Assembly (NCBI RefSeq): GCF_018616375.1
Contig: NZ_JAEQBB010000004.1
Location: 124,001 to 188,000, forward strand
Direction: 5' to 3'
DNA: 64,000 bases
Source of the DNA: Exiguobacterium sp. J17977
Lineage (GTDB): Bacteria > Bacillota > Bacilli > Exiguobacteriales > Exiguobacteriaceae
A program made the position numbers and the translations under genes. Positions within the stretch are counted from its first letter, which is position 1. Every line of letters starts with the position of its first letter. Below the pieces are notes generated by a model. That model did not search any database, had not been told where the DNA came from, and saw only the letters and a list, made by a program, of their open reading frames with translations. Positions 11,085 to 14,477 of the stretch are shown here, in pieces.

Positions 11085-11630
11085 TTACCCGTCTTCCCGC
11101 ACAAATATGCGAACGAACAAATCGTGCAACAAGATTAGGAAGACGGCGTTCCCGATGCCGTGGGCCACATCGAACGGTAGACTGAGCACGAGCAACTTGA
11201 TAAAGTCGGCCCCGATGACCTCCGCGAACGAAAGATTGGCTGTCCAGCCATAGAGAAAACCGGACAAGAGCCCGACGACAGCAAGCATCCACCGCGAGCG
11301 CAGAAGCAGCGGCTTGAGCAGGATGACGACAAGAACGACGAGGAGCCAGCCTAAAAATTGAAACAAGACGAACGGTCCGAGTCCGAGCAACAGTCCCGAT
11401 AAAATCGGGACAAACAACGCCAGCATGGCGGCGCTTGTGAAGCCGAAATACAGAGCCGTCAGCATGAGCAGCGCCGTCGACGGTTGCACGTTCGGGATGG
11501 CCACGAACAGCCAGCGCCCGATGACGGCCAAGGCGAGAATCTGCGTCAAGACGGCTATCGGGACATCCGTCCGCTCAAATCTCGACATGACCCCCGCCGC
11601 AATGATTAGGATGACGATGTATGTGACCAT
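11085..11630 (-). CDS. ECF-transporter S component (substrate-binding membrane subunit), predicted
   Basis: A 181-residue protein with about six membrane segments. The N terminus has the pattern of vitamin-type ECF S components: a Pro/Ala-rich first helix region (VPIAVLTQILALAVIGRW), then PNVQPSTALLMLTALYFG. It follows the ATPase gene with a 25-base overlap, and the EcfT and DUF4430 lipoprotein genes are in the same operon. S components bind the vitamin in the membrane while EcfT and the ATPases power release. The DUF4430 neighbour, related to the beta domain of transcobalamin, suggests a corrinoid substrate, but this is inference. Confidence 0.75.
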   Translation of the reverse strand: MVTYIVILIIAAGVMSRFERTDVPIAVLTQILALAVIGRWLFVAIPNVQPSTALLMLTALYFGFTSAAMLALFVPILSGLLLGLGPFVLFQFLGWLLVVLVVILLKPLLLRSRWMLAVVGLLSGFLYGWTANLSFAEVIGADFIKLLVLSLPFDVAHGIGNAVFLILLHDLFVRIFVREDG

Positions 11631-12565
11631 AGCGCGCTCCGTTCCGTATACTCGGCAACATCACCATCGAAGACGAGCGTACCGTTCGACAGGCAAAGAA
11701 TTCGGTCCGCCGCCTGTATCAGTCGCTCATCATGGGTCGCACACAATATATGTGCCGTCGCGGCCTTCTCGATTAACGCCCGTTCAAACTGAGCTCGCTC
11801 TTGCTCGGTCAAACCGACGCTCGGCTCGTCCAACAAGAACAGCGAAGCCTCGGAATCGAAGACGGCTTGTAGTTGAGCGACGCGACGATTCGTCGCCTGC
11901 GGGAAAGGGCCGTACTCTTGTTCGGCCGGTAAATAGACCGGACGCTCGGTCCATTTGACCTTTCCATACAACGGACGCACACTTTTGGCAATCAATTCGA
12001 GCAACGTCGATTTGCCGCTCCCGTTCGTTCCGATACAGATGGTCAGTCCCGCCTGTTTCGCCTCGTATGATACATGCTCGACCGCATAGGACGCCTGTAA
12101 CGGATGGCGATAAGACACGTCTGTGACGACTAGCTGCGGCTGGTTCACGGTCGGATTGACGTGGAACGCGTCGGACGGGGTATGTTCGCGCGCCCTGTCC
12201 GTGTAAGCGACCCGTACGCCGAGTGCGGTCAGTCGGCTAAGTAACATCGTCAAATGCTCGACCCGAAACCGATCCAAATGTCGGAACGGCTCGATTAAGA
12301 CGAGCGACTCGGCTGAATCGGCGAGCGCGTGCGCGATGCGGACGAGTTGACGTTCCCCGCTCGAGCACTCGTCGAACCGTTTATGGAACAAGTGATCGAT
12401 TTGGAGAATGGCGGCCAGTTCGGCGCCGCGCAGGGCGTCACTTCCAGAAATGAGCGTTGCGACCTTCCCGGCGAGCGGGGTATCGAGGCGGACGACTCGC
12501 GCTTGTTCCGCTTGAACCCACTCCCCGAATTCGTCATGTCCGTCTGCCAAGGATAACCAACGCAT
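11606..12565 (-). CDS. Divergent fused ABC ATPase of an ECF-like transporter
   Basis: A 319-residue protein made of two ABC half-domains with complementary losses. The N-terminal half (1 to about 145) has the signature CSSGERQLVRIA but no Walker A, a degenerate Walker B (LVLIEPF) and no switch histidine. The C-terminal half (about 150-319) has Walker A GTNGSGKST, a Q loop, Walker B LFLLDEPS and switch His in CATHDE, but no signature between them; only about 70 residues separate Walker A and B. In a normal ABC pair each ATP site uses Walker motifs from one domain and the signature from the other, so this chain can build just one site. The ATG start behind GGGAGGGG is secure, so the missing Walker A is not a start error. 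Confidence 0.85.
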   Translation of the reverse strand: MRWLSLADGHDEFGEWVQAEQARVVRLDTPLAGKVATLISGSDALRGAELAAILQIDHLFHKRFDECSSGERQLVRIAHALADSAESLVLIEPFRHLDRFRVEHLTMLLSRLTALGVRVAYTDRAREHTPSDAFHVNPTVNQPQLVVTDVSYRHPLQASYAVEHVSYEAKQAGLTICIGTNGSGKSTLLELIAKSVRPLYGKVKWTERPVYLPAEQEYGPFPQATNRRVAQLQAVFDSEASLFLLDEPSVGLTEQERAQFERALIEKAATAHILCATHDERLIQAADRILCLSNGTLVFDGDVAEYTERSALWSHTSSS

Positions 12566-13202
12566 CGCGCACCCCTCCCTTCGTCAAATATGGATACAGT
12601 AGCCAAACGACCGGTGTGACCATCATCGCGATCGCCGCGAAACCAGCGAGGACGAAGCATTGGACCCAGTCGTGCTTTTCAAAGCGTCGCATCCGGTTCG
12701 TCACGTATATCGGCTCGAGACGTTGGCTGTCGATACCGACGACGACCGCCTCTTGCCAGTCCCGTCGCGGATGACTCGCCAACGATAGACGGACCGCCCG
12801 TTCCATCGTCGGGACGAGCGCCCACCCCCCGTAGAGCAATCGTGTGGAACGGGGCCACTTGTTCAAGAACGGCAATAAGCGTTCGAGACGCATGAATCGA
12901 TTGACCCAAATCATACCGAACAAAAAAGTCGCCAGTGGAATCAATTGATTCGTGACACCCCCGAATGAAATCCGCCACCCGAGGGCGAACGGGGCGAGTG
13001 AAATCAATGAGAACGCGAGGATGACACCGAGCATCGCCAGCGGAAACCGTCGTTCGAGCAGCAACAAACCGACCAGACCGAGGAGGAGCCAAATCGAGTC
13101 ATTCACGTACGTCAACACGTATAAATGGACGAGTAAGAAGAAAAGGAGCGTGACCGGATGTCTGCGCTCCCAATCTGCCTCATTCGAAGAAAGAAATCGC
13201 AT
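12534..13202 (-). CDS. EcfT-like transmembrane coupling protein, divergent
   Basis: A 222-residue membrane protein. Hydrophobic segments lie at about 16-35, 38-75 and 85-105, and near the C terminus (180-205). A central basic region (about 108-170: NRFMRLERLLPFL, RRDW, RMRRFEKH) would form the cytoplasmic coupling helices of an EcfT. The start is the ATG at 13202, which overlaps the lipoprotein gene by 23 bases; a longer frame from 13337 only reads through that gene. Position between a DUF4430 lipoprotein and the ATPase supports the EcfT call. The classic Ala-Arg-Gly coupling motif is not evident, so the call rests partly on context. Confidence 0.65.
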   Translation of the reverse strand: MRFLSSNEADWERRHPVTLLFFLLVHLYVLTYVNDSIWLLLGLVGLLLLERRFPLAMLGVILAFSLISLAPFALGWRISFGGVTNQLIPLATFLFGMIWVNRFMRLERLLPFLNKWPRSTRLLYGGWALVPTMERAVRLSLASHPRRDWQEAVVVGIDSQRLEPIYVTNRMRRFEKHDWVQCFVLAGFAAIAMMVTPVVWLLYPYLTKGGVRDALVILGRRT

Positions 13203-13590
13203 CTTCTTCGAAGCGCCATTGAATGATGTCGGTCGATTCGACTTCTTTGGCTCCGGCGCCTTCATCGCCCGGACTACCATTGAATGCGTAAACCCAGCCC
13301 GAGGATTGTCCGGCCGACTTCTCTTCGATGCCGTCAATCGCCGTCACATACGTCATCTCGCCGTTACCGACCGATTCGATGTCGAGCTCGGTCGCTTCGA
13401 GGGCATCGAGCACCGTCGCCCCCTCTTCCAAGCAGACACTCTTTTCATTGAACAACGTCTCTTCGGTCGACGCGTTGTAGACGGAAATCGTCGGCTCGAC
13501 GCCGCAAGCCGCTTCCTCGGTCGAGGTCGTGTCCCCTCCGCATGCGGTCAAAAGGGGGACGAGTAAACTCATCAGGAGCAATTTTTTCAT
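13180..13590 (-). CDS. DUF4430 (transcobalamin beta-like) lipoprotein
   Basis: A 136-residue secreted lipoprotein. The signal peptide ends in a lipobox LLTAC (Cys about residue 17). The mature part has DUF4430 features: an ATVLDAL segment, SSGWVYAFNG and a C-terminal DIIQWRFEE. This domain is related to the C-terminal beta domain of transcobalamin/intrinsic factor and often sits beside ECF transporters. Here it is followed by EcfT-like, ATPase and S-component genes, so it probably delivers or captures the substrate outside the membrane. Its start overlaps the upstream gene by four bases (ATGA). Confidence 0.85.
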   Translation of the reverse strand: MKKLLLMSLLVPLLTACGGDTTSTEEAACGVEPTISVYNASTEETLFNEKSVCLEEGATVLDALEATELDIESVGNGEMTYVTAIDGIEEKSAGQSSGWVYAFNGSPGDEGAGAKEVESTDIIQWRFEEDAISFFE

Positions 13591-14477
13591 AAATCAGTCA
13601 AATCCTCTCGTTGATGGATAGAGTAATTGTATAGAATCGTATATTTCTCGCCTGTCGTCCGCCCTTGCTGGCTCAGCCCCGACAGTTGAATACTGTTGGC
13701 AAGTACCGGTTCGCGTTGCAACCAAAACTTGACAAGACGATTGTCCCGATTGATCATGAGCATCGACTCGTTCTCGAACGTGTACATGTCATACAGTCCA
13801 TCGAATGAGAGTTGCAACAATGGCGCATCGACTTGTGACGTAAACTCGGACCAGTCCGGTTTCCGGATGGCGTCGAGCATATGTTGAAAGTCGACGAGCT
13901 TCTCGAAGAAGGCACTGCCCGAATCTTTGTTCAGTTCATCGACTTGACGATACGTCAGCTCGCCCGACTCGTCATAGTTGATTCGAATCTGTTGGAACGA
14001 GTTCGCGCGTTCGACCATGAGCAAATATTCGAGCGAACGGAGCTCACCGTCCTCAGTGAAAATCATTTTGCTCCGGTCGAGTTTGATCGAGTCACTATTG
14101 ATGCGGCGCAGGATGTTGTCCGTCATCTCGTCAAACGTCTCGTCTTGAATCGACACCGGGCCAATCTGTTGTGATTCGGCCCGGAATTCGGATTGATCAA
14201 ACAGCGGGACGAACAACAGGACGATGAAGAAAAAGAAGCCGACGAGCGCGCCGTACCATTTATAGCGGCTGTTGCGTTTCGGGAAAAATAAGAACGACAT
14301 CAAAAAACCGATTGGTATATGAAAGCCGCCGATCGGGAACGAAACGATCCCGAGCAATGAGAAAAATAAAAATTTGATAAAAAAGTTCGGTTCCGGTTCT
14401 TTCAGTTGATTCAAGCGTAAACCTAGCAACGTACTGATGACGAAAAAGCCTAGCCATACGTATAGTTGTACTGTCAC
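13587..14477 (-). CDS. Membrane protein with extracytoplasmic domain, unknown
   Basis: A 296-residue protein with four hydrophobic segments in the first 105 residues, then a soluble domain of about 190 residues (begins around QIGPVSIQDETFDEM). The soluble part has no cysteines of note and no motif I recognise. Start taken as GTG at 14477, behind GTGGGGGA and two bases after the RNase Z stop; a GTG 33 bases upstream has no ribosome binding site. It overlaps the DUF4430 lipoprotein gene by four bases, so it is translationally coupled to the putative ECF system and may be an accessory membrane component. Confidence 0.75.
   Translation of the reverse strand: MTVQLYVWLGFFVISTLLGLRLNQLKEPEPNFFIKFLFFSLLGIVSFPIGGFHIPIGFLMSFLFFPKRNSRYKWYGALVGFFFFIVLLFVPLFDQSEFRAESQQIGPVSIQDETFDEMTDNILRRINSDSIKLDRSKMIFTEDGELRSLEYLLMVERANSFQQIRINYDESGELTYRQVDELNKDSGSAFFEKLVDFQHMLDAIRKPDWSEFTSQVDAPLLQLSFDGLYDMYTFENESMLMINRDNRLVKFWLQREPVLANSIQLSGLSQQGRTTGEKYTILYNYSIHQREDLTDL

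Follow-up and report, generated by a model that had tools for sequence, protein, structure and literature searches.

Five overlapping and tightly packed genes are read on the minus strand from position 14477 to 11085 of the analysed window, a 64-kb stretch of a 2.94 Mb Exiguobacterium genome. The first gene of this conserved set (13587..14477) encodes a membrane or exported protein that matched no family above cut-off and was present in the 30 loci examined. The second (13180..13590) encodes a DUF4430 lipoprotein (PF14478, 53 bits), which is likely the extracellular partner. Next come the gene of an EcfT-like transmembrane coupling protein (12534..13202), found by comparison with other EcfTs to be shortened and to lack the second xRG anchor, and that of the ATPase (11606..12565), a reduced fused ECF-type protein of 319 amino acids identified by its motifs and by profile alignment. 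The last gene (11085..11630) encodes an S component, CbrT-like by a profile match to 6fnp_A. No Rfam match at gathering scores was obtained in the 64-kb window.

The C-terminal half of the ATPase (residues 143-319, 11609..12139; this and all following features lie on the minus strand) corresponds to the core of a second nucleotide-binding domain (NBD2) without its helical subdomain, as judged from PF00005 (ABC ATPase, 51 bits against a curated cut-off of 25) and from a structure model. An earlier description of this DNA, made from the letters alone and referred to here as the sequence-only reading, had assigned to this half a Walker A, a Q loop, a Walker B with its glutamate and a switch histidine. 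Three of these were located: the Walker A GTNGSGKST (residues 179-187, 12005..12031; K185 in 38/38 family members), the Walker B FLLDE (residues 243-247, 11825..11839), continuing as LLDEP and with D246 and E247 in 38/38, and the switch histidine H278 (11732..11734), again in 38/38. The Q loop was not retained. Its former place is occupied by YLPA (residues 211-214, 11924..11935), where two-site relatives from other Bacilli have YLPQ; the glutamine is found in 48/48 of those relatives and in 0/38 family members, which carry Ala (35) or Pro (3) instead. Since this loss is general, the ATP site that was kept is not itself canonical. Alignments and motif searches also placed a junction at residues 215-229 (11879..11923), the point at which NBD2 has lost its helical subdomain and its signature, in agreement with the claim that this half has no signature and a reduced helical region; no signature-like pattern was found in the C-terminal half of any of the 38 family members, and its D-loop Asp is kept in only seven.

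The N-terminal half (residues 1-142, 12140..12565) appears as the remnant of a first domain (NBD1) starting near its former Q-loop, according to the hhalign alignment, which begins at residue 45, and to a mixed alignment. It comprises the helical part, the signature, the Walker B strand and the D-loop; the Walker A region is absent, and no Walker A pattern was identified in this half of the window protein or of the 38 family members. The ABC signature SSGERQ (residues 68-73, 12347..12364) shows S68, G70, E71 and Q73, and hence the S-x-G-E pattern, in 38/38. The segment with the Walker B and the D-loop (residues 87-98, 12272..12307) is degenerate: the window protein reads VLIEPF, with Ile in place of the Walker B Asp, and this Asp occurs in 0/38 members, the Walker B Glu in 36/38 and the D-loop Asp98 in 38/38. 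Histidine at the switch position is lacking in the window protein and was seen in one of the 38 members. The sequence-only reading had described this half in the same terms: a signature (S68-S69-G70-E71-R72) kept, no Walker A, a broken Walker B and no switch histidine. It had also called the losses of the two halves complementary; apart from the Q-loop Gln, the same pattern was found in 38/38, each chain bearing one Walker A and one signature, so the motif pattern is a fixed trait of the whole family.

A chain with so many absent motifs resembles a damaged gene, and a sequencing error, a wrong start or a recent pseudogene had to be considered. The ATG is preceded by the Shine-Dalgarno sequence AAGGGAGGGG (12572..12581), which had already been used to exclude a start error, and by an in-frame TGA (12584..12586) seven codons upstream, so that no Walker A domain can be concealed in frame 5' of the gene. 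Full-length relatives were present in 19/19 Exiguobacterium genomes and in 38/38 genomes examined of the order, which belong to two genera of the family Exiguobacteriaceae, with open frames of 310-322 amino acids and with the order EcfT-ATPase-S on the same strand in all 38 genomes. Identity was 54-92% inside Exiguobacterium and fell to 29-34% for the sister genus; among 22 loci compared, four had full-length relatives, all from Exiguobacterium. The dN/dS values of both halves (about 0.11-0.15) indicate purifying selection. They rest on sets of 18 and 11 sequences, of which only pairs with pS 0.10-0.65 were used (16-61 in each set), and are rough because synonymous sites are near saturation. 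Error, wrong start and pseudogene, to which we give practically no weight, are ruled out by this family-wide conservation, since colinear relatives exist in 38/38 genomes of two genera.

Outside the family, no full-length reduced ATPase was found in 360 Bacilli genomes in which the best five candidates per genome were scored; under the same limit, seven of these genomes gave partial matches (E <= 1e-16) of at most 161 residues. With E <= 1e-20, again among the best five candidates per genome, only the window's own genome matched out of 398 genomes of the phylum. This absence is provisional because no more than five candidates per genome were scored. A plasmid search in protein mode (E <= 1e-10) gave no match.

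The S component led to related loci with a complete ATPase. Its profile matched 91 Bacilli genomes outside the family (129 matched minus 38, of 398 sampled), and 52 of these 91 loci were inspected: 12 near the top of the ranking and 40 picked largely because their S frame reached about 220 amino acids or more. In 48 of the 52, the related S component has as its neighbour a fused two-NBD ATPase of 535-694 amino acids by longest frame; 47 of these 48 also have an EcfT. Because ranking and S-frame length guided the choice of loci, 48/52 cannot be taken as an unbiased frequency. In the inspected stretches of L137, L143, L145 and L147 there was no fused ATPase, and their S components may rely on an ECF module that they share with others. 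The gene order is S, then EcfT and the fused ATPase in five of the 48 (L154, L158, L161, L167 and L168), and a DUF4430 gene 5' of EcfT was confirmed in the three two-site loci scanned (L136, L141 and L142). These proteins retain the motifs of both ATP sites. The Walker A Lys is present in 47/48 NBD1 (the exception, L174, is from a stretch that stops at a contig end) and 48/48 NBD2; the Ser and second Gly of the signature are present in 48/48 of both NBDs, the first Gly in 48/48 NBD1 and 47/48 NBD2; the Walker B Asp-Glu and the D-loop Asp are found in 48/48 of both. The switch His occurs in 41/48 NBD1 (Gln in the other seven) and in 48/48 NBD2. Searches of viral contigs with the two-site profile gave 72 pattern matches, none of which was confirmed.

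Thirty reduced ATPases aligned by hhalign to eight syntenic fused two-NBD ATPases in a colinear manner (probability 100, E 9e-41), residues 45-313 of the reduced profile corresponding to columns 122-525 of the two-NBD profile; the reduced profile lacks the last part of NBD1, the linker and the helical region of NBD2. The C-terminal half scores higher with NBD2 in 38/38 (76.8 bits vs 44.0 with NBD1), and the N-terminal half with NBD1 in 36/38, narrowly (median 35.7 vs 30.9 bits with NBD2). In the two proteins tested with NCBIfam models, NBD1 was nearer to EcfA1 and NBD2 could not be separated between EcfA1 and EcfA2. The idea of a fused, reduced ECF motor is upheld by the colinear alignment and by the affiliation of the C-terminal half. 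It is likely, as far as sequence comparison can tell, that the reduced ATPase descends from a two-site fused one that had undergone deletion by the time of the Exiguobacteriaceae ancestor. The sequence-only reading had taken fusion itself as a departure from normal ECF transporters. This part did not stand, since operons of this type ordinarily have a fused ATPase; the reduction is real, and the novelty is therefore the deletion and not the fusion. Its proposed refutation, an unbroken two-domain ATPase in related genomes, was encountered in other families (the 48 loci above), yet the conclusion of error or decay that was to follow from it does not hold for a form that is reduced, open and under purifying selection in 38/38.

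The putative EcfT is reduced as well. Counts given here refer to 25 of the 38 proteins (near-duplicates and eight later loci being excluded) unless 38 is stated. The EcfTs of two-site loci measure 262-358 amino acids by longest frame (median 296), and 47/47 contain the second coupling anchor xRG[YF], followed by Gly in 46 and Ser in one. In the aligned reduced EcfTs the columns of this anchor are empty (25/25). The stretch that separates a conserved Pro from an Asp/Glu spans 47 amino acids in 25/25 of them vs 74-78 in 47/47 two-site loci. Across all 38 family loci, xRG[YFWM] was found only at the far C-terminus of the EcfTs of L056 and L057. Further blocks of 7, 11, 4 and 18 columns are absent in the reduced form, so the loss of the anchor is not isolated and the shortening is broader than the anchor. 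At the place of the ordinary first coupling anchor the reduced protein has S143-H144, invariant in 25/25 and followed by a variable residue, whereas two-site loci mostly have Arg/Lys (44/47) about four residues later, counted from the Pro. The alignment register is uncertain in this comparison, and the Ser-His pair may be a replaced first anchor. The window protein had no Pfam match at E <= 1, none of the 25 members matched CbiQ, and the EcfT-like profile had no match in the PDB. Assignment to the EcfT family depends on gene position and on one single-pair hhalign result against eight two-site EcfTs (probability 74, E 2.8e-5, 214 columns). The same genome has three further EcfTs, all with xRG motifs and with more ordinary ATPases as neighbours, separate EcfA-type ones in one case and fused ones in two (one of them partly read), so the reduction of EcfT and ATPase is specific to this operon. 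In L131, a locus of the sister-genus genome G026, EcfT is split into two frames of 173 and about 120 amino acids (1833-2720), and the ATPase and the S component are open; the break may reflect either faulty assembly or a true loss.

Structure prediction resolved one half of the ATPase. AlphaFold2 with five close sequences gave a pLDDT of 38.9. A second model used 18 alignment rows, including three single NBDs and ten two-NBD stretches that we take to be ABC-F-like, and reached a mean pLDDT of 70.9. Its C-terminal half lies mostly at 81-93 (residues 211-230 at 61-65) and superimposes on chain A of 8bms, an ATP-bound solitary ECF module, with Z 20.2 and 2.3 A over 168 residues; other matches within 1 Z of it, such as VgaL and CFTR NBD1, are to be considered tied. 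Blocks within residues 1-130 have pLDDT 34-63. With this low confidence, the N-terminal half shows a signature helix (69-82), a Walker B strand (87-91), a D-loop helix (99-114) and a strand (118-121). VIA-align hardly probed residues before 141, and full-length Foldseek alignments to two-NBD chains had rmsd values of about 14-26 A. The prediction of the chain alone, proposed earlier as a check, was thus confident for the C-terminal fold and left the placement of the N-terminal half against it undetermined. The model is not independent evidence because it was guided by two-NBD and single-NBD rows.

A composite ABC site is assembled from the Walker A, Walker B, Q-loop and H-loop of one NBD together with the signature of its partner (PMC7756269, available part). 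In ECF modules two EcfT coupling helices dock in two ATPase grooves through X-Arg-X motifs, as stated in the accessible portion of PMC10368641. The motifs retained in the Exiguobacterium chain are those of the NBD2-Walker/NBD1-signature site, minus the Q-loop Gln, and both sides of the other site are physically gone. On these grounds we favour, with a probability of about 0.7, the reading of the operon as a dedicated ECF-type importer, probably for cobalamin or a corrinoid, whose ATPase would be reduced from a two-site fused form and could build one composite site. ATP would be bound by the C-terminal Walker A and B and sandwiched by the signature and D-loop of the N-terminal half of the same chain; that the two halves face each other within one chain is inferred and is not resolved by the model. 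The closing and opening of this single sandwich would move EcfT through the only remaining helical-domain groove, that of the N-terminal half, and the S component would be expelled and then re-docked, with one ATP per cycle. ATPase and EcfT would have shrunk jointly because the deleted NBD2 helical subdomain docked the deleted EcfT anchor. The lost Q-loop Gln fits a lost membrane contact on the C-terminal half and leaves the hydrolysis rate open. Against the one-site reading it must be said that no experiment supports it, that the N-terminal preference for NBD1 over NBD2 is only narrow, and that the Walker B Glu of this half is kept in 36/38 in spite of having no catalytic role in the proposed mechanism. 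The few members that retain the C-terminal D-loop Asp (7/38) or an N-terminal switch His (1/38), the general loss of the Q-loop Gln and the broader shortening of EcfT weigh on the same side.

The main rival is a homodimer in which two chains swap their N-terminal signatures onto the C-terminal Walker A motifs and form two complete sites, the chain being then a rearranged single NBD with its helical subdomain first. Such a dimer needs a single Walker A and a single signature on each chain, as is observed, and pairing within and between chains cannot be distinguished by sequence. We consider it unlikely, though not negligible: the protein descends colinearly from single-chain NBD1-NBD2 pairs, and its N-terminal half retains a Walker B strand and a D-loop, which go beyond a helical subdomain. 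By inference, a homodimer would also offer two grooves to an EcfT that retains at most one anchor, an argument that does not exclude it. The absence of the NBD2 helical subdomain and of the Q-loop Gln (0/38) can also be read as the mark of a former motor that is now an ATP-dependent switch or structural clamp, one ATP holding the EcfT-S complex; hydrolysis would be slow or absent because the Gln is missing and the NBD2 membrane contact is lost. The severe growth defect of single catalytic-Glu mutants of an ordinary ECF module, described in the available sections of PMC10368641, would agree with it. However, E247 and H278, unneeded for pure binding, are invariant in 38/38, and we hold this proposal to be improbable.

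A still weaker case can be made for an S component that uses a housekeeping EcfA1-A2-T module, the reduced ATPase and EcfT being accessory or relics. The genome has three other EcfT genes, one of them beside separate EcfA-type ATPases, related S components occur without a nearby fused ATPase in 4/52 loci, and EcfT is broken in one genome (L131). This is hard to reconcile with an EcfT-ATPase-S order kept in 38/38 and with purifying selection on both ATPase halves, and we regard it as very unlikely.

Returning to the one-site reading, the closest known systems are the two-site loci of other Bacilli, which share the neighbours (EcfT in 47/48, S component in 48/48), the S family and colinear homology, and differ by two complete sites, a longer ATPase, a longer EcfT with xRG[YF] and, in 5/48, an S gene in first position. 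ECF-CbrT of Lactobacillus delbrueckii (PDB 6FNP) has a related S component and differs in that its EcfA and EcfA' are separate proteins and its module is common to different S components (PMC5997447, consulted portion). Complementary losses are known from Pdr5-type asymmetric ABC transporters, where NBD1 has lost Walker A/B and H-loop and NBD2 the signature, leaving one competent site; these are substitutions in whole NBDs (available part of PMC7756269), whereas in Exiguobacterium the Walker A region of NBD1 and the helical subdomain of NBD2 are deleted. The family thus shares with asymmetric ABC proteins one site that keeps its motifs and one that does not, save for the Q-loop Gln (lost in 38/38), and it does not share the otherwise whole NBDs. 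RbsA and NupO of Bacillus subtilis also carry two fused NBDs in importers, with one site called degenerate; their motifs are degenerate and not deleted, and they are type II importers and not ECF (PMC11466899, excerpt). Single competent sites are therefore known in Pdr5-type exporters and proposed for RbsA/NupO, both through substitution, within the limits of these partial sources. A reduced ECF ATPase with a matching EcfT reduction was not found in the literature searched, in which subscription papers were thinly covered.

The operon would encode an importer homologous to ECF transporters that apparently departs from them in two defining respects: in 38/38 the chain by itself does not supply two NBDs with two ATP sites, and of the two X-Arg-X anchors on the coupling helices of EcfT the second is absent (25/25 aligned) and the first altered. 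A natural one-site motor would be surprising because, in the accessible text of PMC10368641, mutation of either catalytic Glu in an ordinary ECF module caused severe impairment under conditions that make cobalamin uptake essential, and purified single-Glu mutant motors showed neither ATPase above background nor folate transport. That one ATP site was deleted together with its coupling anchor, leaving transport to a single site and a single mechanical link, is a proposal we put at only slightly better than even. If true, the two-site, two-helix ECF design would not be required for the toppling and release of S components. ABC transporters are built on two ATP sites, and the number of ATPs per cycle is still disputed. 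For exporters this number is treated in a review (PMC7756269, part available). With the reduced family, transport at one ATP per cycle could be tested directly and with no need for engineered mutants, and structural studies would gain an ECF module of unusually small size.

Concerning the substrate, the S-component profile (21 sequences) matched 6fnp_A with E 7e-22, which meets the expectation of an S component of ECF fold beside the ATPase; the only other PDB match was a weak one to a diadenylate cyclase (E 0.086). PF12822 gave 17.1 bits for the window protein, under its cut-off of 30.7, and was detected in 15/21 members at E <= 10 (best 1.5e-6). The 6FNP structure is that of ECF-CbrT, a vitamin B12 transporter (PMC5997447, in its available part). 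Cobalamin or a corrinoid is our best guess, inferred from the similarity to CbrT and from the DUF4430 lipoprotein without binding or transport data. The genome yielded no cobalamin riboswitch, which counts against this assignment. At E <= 1e-5, PF02310 matches a single protein of the genome, a MerR regulator that combines a B12-binding_2 with a B12-binding domain (L188, 1441-2298); it is presumably CarH-like and a possible user of the imported corrinoid.
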